Source: Deltaproteobacteria bacterium (GTDB taxonomy: Bacteria; Myxococcota_A; Polyangia; Polyangiales; JADJMO01). From it: a stretch of 64,000 nt of DNA. Below, piece by piece: positions 1 to 64,000 of this stretch (positions are counted from its first letter, which is position 1; each line of letters opens with the position of its first letter). The position numbers and the translations under genes are program-made. The DNA lies in contig JALHOE010000009.1 in NCBI GenBank assembly GCA_022843175.1, positions 1 to 64,000 of the forward strand, read 5' to 3'. Under the pieces are notes generated by a model. That model saw only the letters and a program-made list of their open reading frames with translations, was not told the DNA's origin and did no database searches.

Positions 1-2841
1 GCCCTCGGCGTGCGCGGCGCTGCGGGGCTGACGGCCGAGATCCCCGCCGCCCACGCGCCGCCGGCGCCGGTCCCCGAGCGCGCGCTCCGCCGCACGATCG
101 CCGTCATCCGCCGGTTCCAAACGACCGTGCGTTGGTGGATGCGCTACCCGGCCGGGCTCACGGCGCCGAACCAGGAGCGGTTCCGGCAGATGGGTCTCGC
201 GGCGCCGACGTGGTCGTCGACGACGATCACCGACGGACAGATCGCCCCCGGCGACGCGTGCTTCGAGCACATGCAGCGCGTGCGCGCCTACGACGTGCAC
301 TTCGACGGCGCGCCCGCCGCGGAGGATCTCCGGTTCCACGATCACGCCGCGAGCCGCTACACGCTCTACCGCGACGGCTTCGACTACACGACGCACGATC
401 CTCGCCTCCGCGCGACGGCCGCGCCGCTCGCCCTCTACACCGCCGCCGGTCTCACCGAGACCGAGGCGTTCGGGTTGATGTTCGTGAGCAGCCACGAGGG
501 CGGCTTCGACGGCTTCAACAGCTGGGACCGCGCCATCCTCACGTTCGGCTTCGTGCAGTTCACGGTGTCGGGCTCGCTCCAGGGCTACCTCGCGCGCCTG
601 AAGCGCGAGGATCCGGCGGCCTTCACCCGCGTCTACCGCGACTTCGGGATCGACGTGACGAGCGGTCGCAGCCCGGAGCTGCTCGTGCTCGACGCCTCCG
701 GCCGCGTGCTGCGCGGCACCGAGGCCGCGCGTCGCGTCGGCACCGATCCGCTCCTCGCCTCCGTCTTCATTCGCTCCGGACGCGACGCGGCGGTGCAGCG
801 GCAGCAGATCATCGCGGCGGTCAACGGCTACGCGCTCTCCGGCCTCCAGCGTCGGGTCACCTTCACGCCGGCGCGCGGCGCCGCCACCAGCGCGACGTTC
901 CGCGAGATCCTCGTCTCGCCGGAGGCGATCACGACGCTCATCGATCGCACGGTCGCCGCCACCAACGGCGGCCCGGCGCTCGTGCAGCGCGCGGTCCTCG
1001 CGGTCGCCAACGCTGCGGGCCTCACCGACATCCGTCAGCTCACGGCGCCGCAACACCAAGCGGCGATCGTGGCCGAGGTCGAGCGCGTGGTGACCGCGAC
1101 CGATCCGCAGTTGGGCCGGCGCATCGCCGACATCCGCCAGAACCTCGCGGCGTTCATCGCGCGCCGCGGCGCCCCGGCCACCGCCCACGAGCTCGAGTAC
1201 TCCCGAGCGGAGCAGCCGCTCGAGACCTCCCGAGCGGAGCAGCCGCTCGAGAGCGACGAGGACCTCCTCGCCGAGCCGCAGCAGCTCGGGCACGGCGAGG
1301 CCGCGTTCTCGAACACCCCGGTGCTCCGCGCGCATCACCCGACGCGGCAGCCGGATCTCATCCTCCGCTGGAACGACCTCCCCACCGGCACGGACGTCGT
1401 CGACGTGGTGCTGCACCTCCACGGCTTCTCCGGCGACGGCGCGGGCATGGACCTCCGCGTCAAGGCGCGGCGCAGCGGGCTCGACCTGATGACGCCGGGG
1501 CGCGCGCGCCCGACGCTCGGGGTCATCCCTCGCGGGAAGCACGCGCCGTACACCGATCGGGAGGGGCGCTTCCACGACCAGCCGTACCACTTCCCGGTCG
1601 TGCACACCCAAGCGGGGGTCCGTGCGCTCGTCGACCACGCGCTGCAGACGCTCGCCGCGGCGAACAACCTGCCGGCGCTGCGGATGGGGCGGTTCATCGT
1701 CACCGCGCACTCTGGCGGGGGCTCGCACGCGAACCGCCTCCTCCGCGCGACGGCCGGCACCGATCTCGAGCCGCACGAGGTGCACCTGTTCGACTCGACC
1801 TACGGCGCGGCCGACGCCGTGATCGCGTGGGCGCGCCGTCGCATCGATCGCGATCGGCAGAACCCGCCCGAGGGGCCGGGCGCGCTGCGCGTCCTGTTCA
1901 TCGCGGGCTCCGACACCGCGCGCGAGAGCCTGCGGGTGCACCGCGAGGTGCAGGCCCACCTCGGCGCCGACGCGGCGCGGTTCGGGCGACGGTACGCCGT
2001 CGAGAACGTTCGTCGTGTCACGCACGGCGACATCCCCTCGCGCTTCGGCGGGAGGCTCCTCGCGCAAGCGGACGTCGACGTGGCGCCCGACGCGGCGCCC
2101 CCGGTCGTGCGCGCGCACGGCCTCGACGAGGTCGAGCCGCTCGACGTCGCCGAGGACACCGCCCAGTGGAACGACAACCCACGCGCGCACCGCAACTTCG
2201 AGGGCGGCCTGCCCACCTATCTGCGCATGGCGCCGATGTTCCACGCGGCGGGCATCGCCAACCCCGCGCGCTACCTGCTCGACAACATCACCAGCGTCAC
2301 GTTCTTCGGGCGCACGATCCCGGCGCACCGCGCGATGCAGGCGCCCTTCACGGCCGCCGAGCGCGCGCTCCGCGCGCAGGGCTTCACCCCCGAGCTCCAC
2401 TCGTTCTGGTCGTTGAACGTGCGGCCGATCCGCGGCACATCGAACCGGTTGAGCAAGCACGCCGCCGGGCGCGCGGTCGACATCAACCCGCGCACCAACC
2501 CGCGCATCACCCACGCCGACGACTACCGCGTGATCGGCGCCGTCACCGGGATCAACCTCACCCACCGCCGCATGGCGCTCGACACGCTCGAGACCGCCAA
2601 CCGTTTGTTCAAGGAGCGCTACGCGTCATGGCTCGCGGCGCTCGACCCCGCGGTGCCCGCACAGGCCGAGCTCCAGCGCGCCGCCCACGCCCGGCGCAGG
2701 GCGCTCGAGGGCTACGCAGAGCGCGGCTTCCTCGACCTCGATCGCCGCCTCGTCACCGCGCTCCGCGACGCGGGCATGACCTGGGGCGGCGACTGGGGCA
2801 CCGCGAAGGACTTCATGCACTTCGAGCTCCCGGGGTGGTGA
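1..2841 (+). CDS. Multidomain cell-wall protein: lytic-enzyme-like, alpha/beta-hydrolase-like and M15 (VanY-like) peptidase domains; 5' end probably outside window
   Basis: The frame is open from base 1; the first in-window start is a GTG at 10, so the gene may begin upstream. Three regions can be read. Residues of about 140-210 (SSHEGGFD..NSWD, then FGFVQF) resemble lysozyme or transglycosylase-like modules. Residues of about 440-640 carry HLHGFSGDG and TAHSGGG, an alpha/beta-hydrolase pattern with a GxSxG-like nucleophile elbow. The last 150 residues contain SKHAAGRAVDINP and end in GGDWGTAKDFMHFEL, which are the zinc-ligand motifs (HxxGxAxD and HxE) of peptidase family M15, D-Ala-D-Ala carboxypeptidases. 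A duplicated 10-residue segment (SRAEQPLE) links the first two modules. No signal peptide is visible in the window. The M15 call is firm; the other two are weaker. The gene lies outside the integrated element. Confidence 0.75.
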   Translation, partial: ALGVRGAAGLTAEIPAAHAPPAPVPERALRRTIAVIRRFQTTVRWWMRYPAGLTAPNQERFRQMGLAAPTWSSTTITDGQIAPGDACFEHMQRVRAYDVHFDGAPAAEDLRFHDHAASRYTLYRDGFDYTTHDPRLRATAAPLALYTAAGLTETEAFGLMFVSSHEGGFDGFNSWDRAILTFGFVQFTVSGSLQGYLARLKREDPAAFTRVYRDFGIDVTSGRSPELLVLDASGRVLRGTEAARRVGTDPLLASVFIRSGRDAAVQRQQIIAAVNGYALSGLQRRVTFTPARGAATSATFREILVSPEAITTLIDRTVAATNGGPALVQRAVLAVANAAGLTDIRQLTAPQHQAAIVAEVERVVTATDPQLGRRIADIRQNLAAFIARRGAPATAHELEYSRAEQPLETSRAEQPLESDEDLLAEPQQLGHGEAAFSNTPVLRAHHPTRQPDLILRWNDLPTGTDVVDVVLHLHGFSGDGAGMDLRVKARRSGLDLMTPGRARPTLGVIPRGKHAPYTDREGRFHDQPYHFPVVHTQAGVRALVDHALQTLAAANNLPALRMGRFIVTAHSGGGSHANRLLRATAGTDLEPHEVHLFDSTYGAADAVIAWARRRIDRDRQNPPEGPGALRVLFIAGSDTARESLRVHREVQAHLGADAARFGRRYAVENVRRVTHGDIPSRFGGRLLAQADVDVAPDAAPPVVRAHGLDEVEPLDVAEDTAQWNDNPRAHRNFEGGLPTYLRMAPMFHAAGIANPARYLLDNITSVTFFGRTIPAHRAMQAPFTAAERALRAQGFTPELHSFWSLNVRPIRGTSNRLSKHAAGRAVDINPRTNPRITHADDYRVIGAVTGINLTHRRMALDTLETANRLFKERYASWLAALDPAVPAQAELQRAAHARRRALEGYAERGFLDLDRRLVTALRDAGMTWGGDWGTAKDFMHFELPGW

Positions 2842-2972
2842 TCGGTCTCGCCGCCACGAAGCGTCCCAAAAGGCAGCAACGCCGACCCCTGTGTCGGGAT
2901 CGGTCCGGTAATGGGCGGCAGGCGGAGGACGGTCAGAGGGTCGGCGATCCGCCGCGGTGCTAGGTTTCGACG

Positions 2973-3365
2973 ATGGGGGTCGAGCCTCTCACCGACGCCT
3001 TCGTTGTCGGGCTGCTTCACCGGCTGATGGGCCGCCACCGGTACTCGCAGGTCTACCTGTTCGGACCGGCAGGCGAACCGTTCTGGGCTGCGCGGATGCC
3101 CCTCGATGAATTGGAGCTCCCGCTCCTATCCGAGGCGCTTGATCTGATCGAGGCCGCTGAGTCGGCGCACCCGAAGCCGTTCATTGCTCACGACAAGCAC
3201 GGCCGGTTCGTCGTGGGAGCGATCGACGCGAGCGAGGACCTCTACGTCGTGCTGGTCACCCCGGACCGTGAAGCCGCCGCGGCACACGCGTGGGTCTCGG
3301 TCGCCCGTCTCAACGAAGTCCGAAGGGAAATCGCGCCGCATGTCGCTGCGATCCGAGCCCGGTGA
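2973..3365 (+). CDS. Unknown 130-residue cytosolic protein
   Basis: A 130-residue ORF starting at ATG 2973, 131 bp after the peptidase gene. It has no signal peptide, membrane segment or Cys cluster. The sequence alternates hydrophobic strand-like stretches (YSQVYLFGPAGEPFW, LYVVLVTPD) with helices (LLSEALDLIEAAES), which would suit a small alpha/beta fold, and the size and pattern are compatible with roadblock/LC7-type proteins. I cannot point to a diagnostic motif, so this is only a suggestion. Codon use matches the neighbouring host genes. It lies outside the element. Confidence 0.55.
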   Translation: MGVEPLTDAFVVGLLHRLMGRHRYSQVYLFGPAGEPFWAARMPLDELELPLLSEALDLIEAAESAHPKPFIAHDKHGRFVVGAIDASEDLYVVLVTPDREAAAAHAWVSVARLNEVRREIAPHVAAIRAR

Positions 3366-3458
3366 TCCCGGCGTCGAGACCGTCGTCCGCATCGATGCAC
3401 GAGCCCCAATGCACCATCTGCTACGCGATGTGCTTTCCGGCGAGGTGGGCACGCTGCC

Positions 3459-4028
3459 TCAGAAGCGATAGCGGACGCCGACGGAACCCGACAGCGGCAC
3501 GATGAACATCCCGTACGCCCAGCTCGCGCCATATCGCGGCCGGTCGGCGCCCCACCACAACCGCCGAAGACGCACAATCCCCACGTCGAGAAACAGGTCG
3601 AGGCTCGGGGAAAGCGGGCGGGCGAGCTCGGCGTCGAAGTCGACGAAGTAGCCCGGCGTCGTCCACGCGCTCCCACCGTCGCTGCGTGCATTGGCGTACG
3701 CGAACCCGCCCGCGAACCGCACGCCGCCACGTATCGACTCGCCGTTGGTCCGGTAGGCGGCAACCGCGCCGATCACGCCGACGGACGCTCGCTGCGGCGT
3801 ATCGCGGCCGGGGTAGTTGACGTGCTCGTACCCAGCGATCGCGCCCACGGACCAGAACCGTGCAACGCGGTAGTCGTACTGCAACCGCGAGCCGACGGCG
3901 TACGGAAACTGTGGGCTTTTTGTGTCAGTGTTGGGGTTCGACTCCGGAATCTCGATGCACTGGCAGGCGACGACCTCGACGGCGACCGCGTGGCGGGGCG
4001 GTTCAGCGGCATCGACCGGCACTAGCAT
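3459..4028 (-). CDS. Outer-membrane beta-barrel-like protein, probably lacking its N-terminus
   Basis: A 190-residue product if the ATG at 4028 is used. It shows alternating polar/hydrophobic strands with aromatic girdles and ends in SGSVGVRYRF; a C-terminal Phe is typical of outer-membrane barrels. No signal peptide precedes the barrel: the first residues (MLVPVDAAEPPRH) are not hydrophobic. The frame runs open further upstream to about 4301, but that part encodes integrase-like sequence instead (see the fossil integrase). The gene is therefore probably 5'-truncated by the rearrangement that left the recombinase remnant. It could still be made but would not be exported. Its 3' end is 94 bp downstream of the convergent gene ending at 3365. 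Confidence 0.5.
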   Translation of the reverse strand: MLVPVDAAEPPRHAVAVEVVACQCIEIPESNPNTDTKSPQFPYAVGSRLQYDYRVARFWSVGAIAGYEHVNYPGRDTPQRASVGVIGAVAAYRTNGESIRGGVRFAGGFAYANARSDGGSAWTTPGYFVDFDAELARPLSPSLDLFLDVGIVRLRRLWWGADRPRYGASWAYGMFIVPLSGSVGVRYRF

Positions 4029-4199
4029 CGTCCAAGGATACCGGACGGCGGTAAGATGATGGGTCGCTGGGCCGTGGCCGGCATAGCGTGCCGATTGGGC
4101 GGTGACCGACGTTCGGCGACGTCCCGAAGCTATCGGCGTCGGGTGACCTCCGCACGCAACCCCGACCTCGAGGAAGAGGTGTCGGAGGCGTATGCGGCG

Positions 4200-4449
4200 G
4201 ACGTCGCGAGGAAGCTCGATCGCTACGTGCTGCCCGTGGTTCGCCCAGTTCCGATCGCCGCGTTCACGATTGTCCGCGTTGCGCCGGTACCGCTCGATCA
4301 TGCTCGACGTCGTGTGACCGGTGCGACGTCGGATCCATCCCTCACCTGCCCTGAGCGATCGCGAGCGTCACGAACGTGCCGCGCAGATCTCGGGGAGGGC
4401 GAAGCGGTCGCGCTGGATGCGCTGTGGCTCGCCCTTCCTGAACTGCACG
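4200..4449 (-). pseudogene. Fossil tyrosine recombinase, C-terminal fragment
   Basis: Reading the minus strand gives FVTLAIAQGR, then after a one-base shift GEGWIRRRTGHTTSSMIERYRR. This matches the end of a phage-type integrase: the segment after the HxLR motif, the conserved TGH, and the catalytic tyrosine in MIERYRR. The HDLR part itself is degenerate and a frameshift separates the two blocks, so the gene is dead. It is not a copy of the intact integrase next door, which reads FATMAFARAE and RTGHVDSRMLNQKYRR at the same places. It lies just outside the left repeat at 4595, as expected of an older, decayed insertion near the same tRNA target. Confidence 0.6.
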
Positions 4450-4591
4450 TGCACGTGCCCGCTGACGATCGTGCTGACACTTCGGCGTCGCGCACTGTCA
4501 GCAACGGCGGCGCGTCGAGCGCGATCGCCGCGGTGCACTCGGACAAAAGCAGCGACGCCGGCCTTGGCTTCCCGAGGTCCGGCGTCACTTC

Positions 4592-6097
4592 CTATTCGGT
4601 GGAGGATATGGGGATCGAACCCACGGCCTCTAGAGTGCGATTCCGGGGTTTTTGAGGCCTGGGCCGACGACGGCGCAGTTTCCTCGCCCTTCGCCGGGGC
4701 CGTCCCCGGCCATCCGCAGCGCCGGAAGACACCTGGCGGACAGCGGCGGCGTGAGCGGCCAGCTCGGGGATCGCCTCGACCATCGAGCGGTAACGCGTCT
4801 GCCCGCGCTCGGCGAGGTGAGCAGCGGGGCGCCGATACTTCTGGTTGAGCATCCGGCTGTCGACGTGGCCGGTCCGCATCATGATCCAGGTCTCCGACTC
4901 GGCGCGCGCGAAGGCCATCGTGGCGAAGCATGCGCGGAGATCGTGAGCGACGAGCTGTTTACGCGTCTTCGTCGACTCGAACAGCTCCGGGCGATCGATC
5001 CCGACGGCGCGCAGATCCTCGCGCAGGTCGTCGGCGAGCTTCTCGACATTCACGGCGGCCTGCCCATCGGCGGCGAACACGAAGCGGCTCTTGGTCGGTT
5101 GCAACGTCCGCCAGATCCGCAACGCCTCTGCGACGTCGTCGGCAGCGTTCCAGAAGCGCGGGCCGACGCGGTCGACGGTCTTGTGAATCTCGAGGGTGAG
5201 CTCGGCGCGCTCACTATCGAACCACCCCGCGGCGTCCTTGGAACGCTCGTCCGACCACTGCAGCGTGCTCGCTTCCTCTTTGCGAAAGCCCTCACGAACC
5301 AATGCGCCGTAGAGGATGCGCCTGCTGAGCGGGACGACGGTATCCCCAGCAGCGTTTCGACCCGCCAGCAATTTCGCTTCCTCTTCGACGTGGATGAAGC
5401 CTCGCGCGCGGCGCTTCCCTCCGCCCTTGGGCACGAAGTTGCTCGGCAGCGGGTTGGAGGGGCGCAGGCCGAGCGGATTCACTGACAAGTCGAGAACGCG
5501 CTTCATCGTCCACGCAATCATCTGCTTGGTCGCGTCGGAGAGAGCATCGCCGTACTTTGCTTCGATGCGAGCCATGACCTCGTTGCACTGCGGGAGGTCC
5601 ACGGCGGCGATCGGTAGGTCGCCGATCACGGGCTCGACGTAGGTCTCGCTCTTGTATTTGATGTCGGCTGCGTGCTCCTTCCCCATTACGCGGACAATCG
5701 TGGGGTACCTGCGATGGAGGGTTCCGTCCGTCAGGAGCGCACGTACGTCCGCGTAGCTCACGCCGCCGAGCGGCGCCTCGTCACGAGGCGGCCAGCGGTC
5801 CGCAACGATCAGATCGACGACGCGCGCGATGTCGTCGAGCTTCTTCTGGCTGTCTGCGCGTGCGACCTGTTCAACCGTGCGTACGGTCCAGTCGTCCTTG
5901 CCAGCCGCTCGCAGTTTCGAGCACAGGTTCGACGCGAGGCGCGCGCGCGCCCGACCCTCGTCTTCGCTCGTCGCGCTCGGGACCTTCGCGGTCTTGCGCC
6001 GTTTGTTACCGAGCGAGACCTTGATGAAGACGCCACCCTCGGCATCGACGTATACCGTGCCCTCGTTGGTACCCTTGTCGTCCATGGCCTCCCTCAT
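4592..6097 (-). CDS. Tyrosine recombinase (integrase) of the tRNA-Ala element; 3' end overlaps the attachment repeat
   Basis: A 501-residue site-specific recombinase. Catalytic residues of the family are visible: an arm I arginine in EGFRKEEASTLQW, HDLR at about 385-388, the second histidine in RTGH (about 411) and the nucleophile tyrosine in NQKYRR (about 421). The first 200 residues hold the arm- and core-binding region. The ATG at 6097 is chosen because it overlaps the stop of the upstream ribbon-helix-helix gene as ATGA. The last codons (VGSIPISSTE) are the tRNA fragment read in frame, and the stop follows directly after the 49-bp repeat. Recombination with the right-hand repeat keeps the frame and would replace this stop by 72 further codons (62846-63064). 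Myxophage Mx8 is known to change its integrase C-terminus on integration in the same way. The role of the tail here is inferred. Confidence 0.93.
   Translation of the reverse strand: MREAMDDKGTNEGTVYVDAEGGVFIKVSLGNKRRKTAKVPSATSEDEGRARARLASNLCSKLRAAGKDDWTVRTVEQVARADSQKKLDDIARVVDLIVADRWPPRDEAPLGGVSYADVRALLTDGTLHRRYPTIVRVMGKEHAADIKYKSETYVEPVIGDLPIAAVDLPQCNEVMARIEAKYGDALSDATKQMIAWTMKRVLDLSVNPLGLRPSNPLPSNFVPKGGGKRRARGFIHVEEEAKLLAGRNAAGDTVVPLSRRILYGALVREGFRKEEASTLQWSDERSKDAAGWFDSERAELTLEIHKTVDRVGPRFWNAADDVAEALRIWRTLQPTKSRFVFAADGQAAVNVEKLADDLREDLRAVGIDRPELFESTKTRKQLVAHDLRACFATMAFARAESETWIMMRTGHVDSRMLNQKYRRPAAHLAERGQTRYRSMVEAIPELAAHAAAVRQVSSGAADGRGRPRRRARKLRRRRPRPQKPRNRTLEAVGSIPISSTE
4595..4643. repeat. 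Left attachment-site repeat (att core, 49 bp)
   Basis: These 49 bp are identical to 63065-63113, where they form the 3' part of an intact tRNA-Ala gene, from anticodon-stem position 30 to 5 bp past the 3' end. The flanking base differs on both sides (a versus t on the left, c versus t on the right). Here the tRNA 5' half is missing, so this is the detached copy produced by integration. It sits within the last codons of the integrase gene. Confidence 0.93.
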
Positions 6098-6273
6098 CGT
6101 GCTTTCAAGGTGCGGGGACGTTTCGCCGGCGGTCCCTCGCGGGTGACATACTCGCGCCGCACCAACTGGCGGAGCACGTCGGAAGCGGAGAGGCCATCTC
6201 GTTCGGCGAGCCAATCGAGCATCTCACGCTCGGCCGATGACAGTCGCATAGTGAAAACTCGCTCGCGATCCAT
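6094..6273 (-). CDS. Small ribbon-helix-helix (CopG/Arc-like) regulator, co-translated with the integrase
   Basis: A 59-residue protein from ATG 6273 to TGA 6094. It reads MDRERVFTMRLSSAERE, then MLDWLAERDGLSASDVLRQL, then VRREYVTR. A short beta strand (FTMRLS) followed by two amphipathic helices with a turn is the ribbon-helix-helix layout. Its stop overlaps the integrase start as ATGA, so the two are almost certainly co-expressed. Two direct ATGTACT heptamers 11 bp apart cover its start codon, a spacing typical of operators for these dimeric regulators, so autorepression of the regulator-integrase operon is likely. The function is inferred from fold pattern and position. Confidence 0.8.
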   Translation of the reverse strand: MDRERVFTMRLSSAEREMLDWLAERDGLSASDVLRQLVRREYVTREGPPAKRPRTLKAR

Positions 6274-6335: not shown

Positions 6336-6686
6336 TCATTTGGCCTTCTTCCCGCGAAGCCCTGTCGTGGCAGGGGTCGAGAACGCCGCGACGACTCCCG
6401 GGTCGAGCTCGGTGTCCGAGGACGGCAGACCCCTGGGATATCGAGCACCGACCGGATTTCGCTTGAGGTAATCGTAGAGCTCGCTGCGGATGACGAAGAG
6501 ATCTTTCCCATCTCGGTATCCGCGGATGACGCCTCGCTGGACGAGCTTCCGCACCTTCTCGTGAGTGATCGGCGCCTGCTTGCTGTTGATGAGATCATCG
6601 GGGCGGCCACCATCGGTGTCGTGCCGACGCGCCTCGGCGATCACCTCGATGACCAGCCGCTCCAGCGCCTTGCGAAGCTCGCTCAC
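6336..6686 (-). CDS. HTH (excisionase/MerR-like) DNA-binding protein
   Basis: A 116-residue protein. The middle reads PITHEKVRKLVQRGVIRGYR, then DGKDLFVIRSELYDYLKRNP, a winged-helix pattern with recognition helix, RG-turn and Y-L anchor as found in excisionases and helix-turn-helix domain 17 proteins. The N-terminal helix (LRKALERLVIEVIAEARRHD) may dimerise. The C-terminal 30 residues look disordered. It lies 63 bp upstream of the ribbon-helix-helix gene on the same strand, an expected position for a recombination directionality factor. That role is an inference; it could instead be a regulator. Confidence 0.65.
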   Translation of the reverse strand: MSELRKALERLVIEVIAEARRHDTDGGRPDDLINSKQAPITHEKVRKLVQRGVIRGYRDGKDLFVIRSELYDYLKRNPVGARYPRGLPSSDTELDPGVVAAFSTPATTGLRGKKAK

Positions 6687-63064: not shown

Positions 63065-63145
<81 letters not shown>

Positions 63146-63182
63146 AGGGAGGCGTACCTTACAACGCCGAAGCCAAACGTCA

Positions 63183-63806
63183 ATGAGGATCCTGTACGCC
63201 CACGGTTTCGCGAGCGGGCCCCTGTCCAAGAAGGGCGTCGCGGTGCGCGCGCACCTGGCGAAGCGGGGGCTCGAGGTCGAGCTGCTCGACCTCCGGGTGC
63301 CGTCGCCGACGGGGCTCCGGCTGTCGCGGATGATCGAGGTGGTGCGCGCGGCCGCCGGGCCGGAGACGCTCGCGATCGGCTCGTCGCTCGGCGGGCTCAC
63401 GGTCGCGCACGCGGCCGCGATCGACCCGCGCATCCGCGCGACGGTGCTGCTCGCTCCTGCGTTCCGGCTCGTCGAGCGGTGGCGGCGGCGGATGACGGTC
63501 GAGGAGTGGGCGCGGTGGGAGCGCGAGGGCACGTTCCGCTACGACGATCACGCGACCGGGGGCTCGCTCGACGTCGACTTCGGGTTCATGGAGGACGCGG
63601 CGCGGGTGGACACGTCGTGGCCGGACGTGCGCGTGCCGACGACGATCGTCCACGGGACGCGGGATGCGACCGTCGAGCCGGAGCTGTCGCGCACCTTCGC
63701 GGCCACGCGGCCGAACGTGCGGCTGGTGGAGGTGGACGACGACCACCAGCTGCTCGGGTCGCTCGAGCGGATCTGCGCGGAGATCGACGCAGCGCTACGC
63801 CAATAG
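63183..63806 (+). CDS. YqiA/YcfP-type alpha/beta-hydrolase
   Basis: A 207-residue protein. ILYAHGFASGPLSKK is the family opening, IGSSLGGLTVAHAA holds the nucleophile Ser in GxSxG, VHGTRDATVEP gives the Asp and DDDHQLL the His of the triad. Esterase activity on short acyl chains is known for YqiA. It is host DNA directly upstream of the tRNA in the opposite orientation. Its stop codon lies within the first of the downstream repeats. Confidence 0.9.
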   Translation: MRILYAHGFASGPLSKKGVAVRAHLAKRGLEVELLDLRVPSPTGLRLSRMIEVVRAAAGPETLAIGSSLGGLTVAHAAAIDPRIRATVLLAPAFRLVERWRRRMTVEEWARWEREGTFRYDDHATGGSLDVDFGFMEDAARVDTSWPDVRVPTTIVHGTRDATVEPELSRTFAATRPNVRLVEVDDDHQLLGSLERICAEIDAALRQ

Positions 63807-64000
63807 GCGCGCGCGTCAGCGAGCGCCTGACCGGTAGGGATTTGCGTTGAGGCGCTCGCTTACGCGCGCGCCTATCTCTTCGCCAATAGGCGCGCGCGTC
63901 AGCGAGCGCCTGACCGGTAAGGATTTGCGTTCAGGCGCTCGCCTACGCGCGCGCCTATCTCTTCGCCTCACAGGCGCGCGCGTCAGCGAGCGCCTATCTA
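63801..64000. repeat. Tandem 83-84 bp palindromic repeats at the window end
   Basis: Units begin at about 63801 and 63884, and a third is cut by the window end near 63968. Each unit can fold into a hairpin with arms of about 27 nt (TAGGCGCGCGCGTCAGCGAG ... and its near-complement) around a 17-nt centre. They resemble REP or MITE-like elements. No coding capacity. Confidence 0.8.

Follow-up and report, generated by a model that had tools for sequence, protein, structure and literature searches.

Repeated use of one transfer RNA (tRNA) gene as an integration site is already well known. The available part of the Islander report counts 125 tandems among 3,919 islands (PMC4383910), and the ssrA islands of Dehalococcoides, as described in the accessible portion of that study, illustrate many-fold repeated insertion at a single RNA gene (PMC3146451). 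Here, we describe the tRNA-Ala(CGC) gene in a 64,000-base stretch of DNA, hereafter the window, which comprises the first 64,000 bases of the 89,185-base contig JALHOE010000009.1 from the 9.75 Mb, 470-contig genome of a Deltaproteobacteria bacterium. A 58-kb genomic island occupies most of the window, and the broken remains of a second integrase gene lie just outside its left border. Very probably, elements have inserted at this tRNA gene two or more times in this lineage, through two integrases of opposite handedness. The case is ordinary in kind and well documented.

The island border is firm. A complete tRNA-Ala(CGC) gene, located with ARAGORN, stands at the right end (63068-63142, minus strand), and the left attachment (att) core, attL (4595-4643, minus strand), is a copy of the 3′ half of this tRNA, identical at 49 of 49 bp to 63065-63113. 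With a complete tRNA at one end, a 3′ fragment at the other and an integrase gene inside, the 58-kb element has the makeup of a genomic island bounded by tRNA gene DNA (tDNA).

The fossil outside attL is one plus-strand integrase pseudogene of about 4109-4594, which points at and reaches the att core and whose catalytic segment is inverted. Its reference is the open integrase of 505 amino acids in a related genome (G002:C1119, record CAIXWQ010001119.1), against which three pieces match, with E-values computed for one genome: 4152-4280 on the plus strand (58%, E 2.8e-8), 4254-4352 on the minus strand (79%, E 4.8e-11) and 4380-4583 on the plus strand (59%, E 2.1e-15). The fossil integrase is real, beyond chance. 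By DNA alignment, piece 1, the core-binding region (4109-4268, plus), corresponds to nucleotides 367-528 of the reference gene; piece 2, the inverted catalytic segment (4270-4389, minus), runs from nucleotide 1226 down to about 1105; and piece 3, the C-terminal tail up to the att core (4390-4594, plus), aligns with nucleotides 1229-1397 over about 4392-4537. The intervening nucleotides 529-1104 (576 bp) are absent, and pieces 1 and 2 each carry a 2-bp deletion that shifts the frame. A search by eye at the ends of the inversion revealed no inverted repeats. The frame of the tail traverses the att core and meets its stop codon at 4655. With the complete tRNA in place, it would end right after RVRF, and the fossil C-terminus now reads RVRFRGF-stop instead of RVRF-stop. 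Membership of the tyrosine recombinase or phage integrase family (PF00589) is assigned by relationship only, through the matches to the G002:C1119 integrase (56.1 bits against a cut-off of 27.1): the broken frames run directly against Pfam do not reach the cut-off, with piece 1 giving an E-value of 0.13 for Phage_int_M. Owing to the inversion, the frameshifts and the missing 576 bp, the fossil lacks the complete catalytic set, as we take its motif residues to be, in one open frame.

An earlier, sequence-only reading of this locus had described a lone C-terminal recombinase fragment 146 bp outside the left border, and had suggested searching it against integrases. The three matching pieces bear out the presence of frame-broken integrase sequence just outside attL, whereas the fragment is neither alone nor at that distance, as the plus-strand pseudogene extends to the core. 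What had been read on the minus strand at 4270-4389 is the inverted catalytic segment of a plus-strand gene, so that this gene would enter the core from the side opposite to the present integrase. The same reading held that a conserved intact gene in relatives would speak against a fossil; such a gene is present only as an open homologue in G002, and the window copy is broken.

The relatives provide further evidence. Five genomes of the family were compared: the window genome (G000), G001 of the same genus, G002 of a sister genus, G004, a second species of that sister genus, and G003, whose contig ends inside tRNA-Ala(CGC) and thus leaves the 3′ side unreadable. This break, at the end of G003:C125 (L063/L135), is as expected from an att repeat. 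In all four genomes in which the 3′ side can be read, a fossil-type integrase tail lies there. In G001, a tail remnant adjoins the orthologous tRNA-Ala (E 3.5e-9). In G002, the contig C1237 carries an integrase frame that is open over 338 codons, with its 5′ part cut off by the contig end, and that is convergent with and overlaps the orthologous tRNA-Ala(CGC) in antisense. The G004 remnant (46% over 43 residues) reaches an E-value of 1.6e-6 with composition correction off and is unseen at default settings. The fossil is thus what is left of an integrase whose frame keeps register with the core of the tRNA, and relatives share such remains at the orthologous tRNA. It is best regarded as the probable relic of an island that once occupied this tRNA, with a predicted target specificity.

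Beyond the family, a survey took in 29 tRNA-Ala(CGC) loci, including the window and the G003 locus that has no downstream bases, with L030 set aside for its GGC anticodon. Two genomes from a different family (G020 and G044) carry full integrases adjoining the tRNA (Pfam E 1.2e-21 and 3.8e-20), and the G020 frame likewise ends within the tRNA in antisense; weak matches at L005 (17 residues) and L015 (50 residues) were excluded from the count. Since both the family tails and these full integrases adjoin it, several integrase lineages make use of the tRNA-Ala(CGC) site. As for the gene that originally lay 3′ of the tRNA, G004 has in this place one that we take, from its sequence features, to be RecQ-like. 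Its orthologues in G001 and G002 are on other contigs, in stretches that contain no att copy and no integrase, and its best match in the window genome reaches just 48%.

The integrase of the present island (4592-6214, minus strand) reads through the att core in the sense of the tRNA. It is recognized by its match to the PHROG integrase family phrog_1 (E 1.1e-13) and by 43% identity over 440 residues to an integrase of the same genome (G000:C15), together with a Pfam Phage_integrase score of 22.7 bits that is below the 27.1 cut-off. As the sequence-only reading had maintained, the fossil differs from it: only 41 of 103 aligned residues are identical, against 83 of 104 with the G002:C1119 integrase, while 47 of 65 are shared with that of G002:C1237. 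A tree of 27 rows, with G004:C216 left out as too short, groups the fossil with these two G002 integrases (100/100) and apart from the present integrase, which stands beside sense-type integrases with weak support (86/63; bootstrap not fully settled). To judge from sequence, the present integrase is of a different lineage within the same broad family, and would enter the same core from the side opposite to the fossil.

Handedness was called in 28 integrase rows, namely 26 at about 180 bits or more together with G004:C216 and the fossil, from the T-arm of a tRNA, or a whole tRNA, close to where the gene ends. Fourteen read antisense to the tRNA, nine read in sense and five are unassignable, two of them at contig ends; some calls use T-arms as distant as about 490 bases from the stop (farther for the minus-strand gene of G001:C20) because the frames continue beyond the tRNA. 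Handedness must change 5 times or more on the tree, whereas shuffled labels need 7.2 changes on average and do as well in 27-32 of 500 shuffles, so that it is only mildly clustered. In G001:C20 (L061, 3378-6211), two open integrases of the fossil's family face each other across a tRNA-like 3′ fragment, of tRNA-Leu type by reading of the sequence, and this pair is an unbroken parallel to the window arrangement. A broader, speculative and rather unlikely proposal is that this integrase family has repeatedly switched handedness within the order. The tRNA core would supply C-terminal codons in sense or antisense, which would let opposite-handed elements occupy a common core from its two sides, facing each other. 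A newcomer would replace the tRNA sequence from which the resident integrase took its stop codon and would alter its C-terminus, which could help to disarm the resident.

The mismatches of the fossil to G002:C1119 bear on its age. In piece 2, with its two sub-pieces added together, they amount to 0/40, 1/40 and 17/39 at the first, second and third codon positions, and the chance of at least 17 of 18 falling at third positions is 9.6e-8; the tail is also biased to the third position (7, 4 and 18). A rough bound, in which the neutral rate is assumed to be that of third positions, attributes at most about 13% of the divergence of the fossil to neutral drift. Because mismatches concentrate at third positions, this pattern says that the old integrase was probably under selection until recently, and that its death is recent when set against the time since it diverged from G002:C1119.

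The DNA to the left of attL resembles the island in composition. The G+C content is 73.3% at 1-2841, 67.5% at 2842-4594, 67.4% in the island and 71.2% at 63143-64000, with a shift near 2.85 kb, and third-position G+C is 0.95-0.96 in the two flanking genes but only about 0.8 for the genes of 2973-4301, as for most genes of the island. This suggests a residue of the older element of about 1.7 kb (probably 2842-4594) that would take in a barrel-like gene and a small open reading frame, neither of which has a match in Pfam, NCBIfam or PHROGs. The small frame (2973-3365) has a homologue of 82% DNA identity on G001:C29. The barrel-like gene (3459-4022, minus strand; start uncertain, 5′ end possibly cut) has homologues on G001:C27 (35%) and G000:C12 (34%), both with a hydrophobic N-terminal stretch that, compared by eye, is missing from the window gene. 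The earlier description of a barrel gene without signal peptide agrees with this comparison, and its further view of the gene as a truncated neighbour fits without being proven. Farther left, the peptidase-like gene at 10-2841 is unmatched in each of the remaining four genomes of the family and therefore offers no synteny anchor.

These observations can be joined into one history. An older element would have been first at tRNA-Ala(CGC), with an integrase gene that, to judge from its remains, ran toward the 3′ end of the tRNA and into it in antisense. Either before or after the second insertion, this gene would have broken through the inversion, the 576-bp loss and the two 2-bp frameshifts that are evident against the relatives. 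The later 58-kb element, whose different integrase reads into the core in sense from the other side, would have used the same 49-bp core, and the relic would thereby have been left just outside attL. The arrangement is directly visible, and from it we infer the order of events. That an older element had inserted at the same tRNA and decayed, as the sequence-only reading also proposed, is argued by the tail frame that enters the core, by the tails of G001, G002 and G004 that abut the orthologous tRNA-Ala and by the island-like G+C of the left DNA.

Several points weigh against this history. An outer tRNA fragment left by the older element was found neither in 1-4590 (best score 10, shuffles with a mean of 11.3) nor genome-wide in the window genome, so the further tRNA 3′ fragments that had been anticipated to the left did not appear. 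In a separate scan of the genome contigs, the query's own record was the sole match. A deletion that joined the cut 5′ ends of the barrel gene and the old integrase gene would, as a conjecture, also explain the missing fragment. The contig begins at window position 1 and the left side is therefore incomplete, and the assembly is a draft. Piece 1, with 8, 10 and 11 mismatches by codon position, lacks third-position bias, which tells against a sharp date, and the conserved pieces are closer to G002:C1119, located at tRNA-Gly, than to G002:C1237 at tRNA-Ala (branch 93/50).

We consider a variant of the two-insertion history that differs in age possible, if not probable: a single fossil-type insertion at tRNA-Ala would predate the split of the two genera, g1 and g2, and would have been inherited vertically and decayed separately, only the 58-kb island being new. 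The presence of the tail in all four readable genomes agrees with this, as do tail identities close to those of the coding gene across the tRNA (136/158 against 566/703 between G000 and G001; 139/189 against 472/626 between G000 and G002). However, the catalytic piece was strongly selected until recently and has its nearest relative at a different tRNA, and the G001-G004 tail match, at 44 against a shuffled maximum of 40, is scarcely above the null. It is highly improbable that a chance rearrangement, for instance the transposition of a fragment, brought the integrase piece here and that it was never part of an element inserted at this tRNA. The rearranged segment and the failure to find an outer att copy would fit, but the tail keeps register with the core of the tRNA and is common to G001, G002 and G004 at the orthologous tRNA. 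An assembly or binning error behind the inverted segment or the junction is scarcely more credible; a draft of 470 contigs invites it, yet two separate 2-bp frameshifts exist besides the rearrangement, and the nearest other copy in the genome has 76% DNA identity to the fossil and is therefore not the source of the inverted segment.

Other features of the window were recorded alongside. Just inside the active integrase, a ribbon-helix-helix or Arc-like gene (6094-6273, minus; NikA-like at 19.3 bits, under the cut-off) is accompanied by a possible helix-turn-helix gene (6336-6686, minus; PHROG E 0.02), and these two small DNA-binding-like genes could be regulators or an excision factor. A Pfam sample of the cargo at 13027-56165 includes a sodium/proton exchanger, a cation P-type ATPase, an RND pump with HlyD partner and outer-membrane factor, an MscS-like channel, two-component and sigma-54 regulators, a multihaem cytochrome and isocitrate dehydrogenase; among 20 island proteins scanned with Pfam, none is a conjugation gene. 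A motif is repeated over 63810-64000, to the right of the hydrolase gene; its three stretches of 20 bp (63809-63828, 63892-63911 and 63976-63995) all match a single place in G000:C15 exactly.

The locus offers a readable history of one tRNA attachment site, with the integrase lineages that have used it, the side that each came from and how recent the death of one was, and it is roughly datable and traceable in relatives. The convergent pair at the core, together with the open parallel in G001:C20, allows coexistence, competition or mutual disarming of opposite-handed elements at a shared site to be tested. Within the part of the literature that was covered, a search on remnant integrases returned nothing and no paper on the present site was noticed. 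Among individual genes, the G002:C1119 integrase resembles the fossil in running antisense into its tRNA, but has an open frame and is located at tRNA-Gly(CCC); that of G002:C1237 shares the antisense position at the orthologous tRNA-Ala(CGC), but is open as far as it extends. The Islander tandem arrays, in the available part of that report (PMC4383910), resemble the window in having more than one integrase lineage per tRNA gene and an island between the tRNA and its 3′ fragment. Every member of such a tandem has an integrase gene and a tDNA fragment to itself. Here, the older element has no findable tDNA fragment of its own, and the locus is therefore classed as what remains of an island that came earlier to this tDNA and is not counted as an intact tandem. 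The Dehalococcoides islands, as far as the accessible portion of the study describes them (PMC3146451), share successive insertions with older residents fixed or decayed, but keep many direct repeats and one type of integration module, whereas the window has integrases entering from opposite sides and a single repeat pair.
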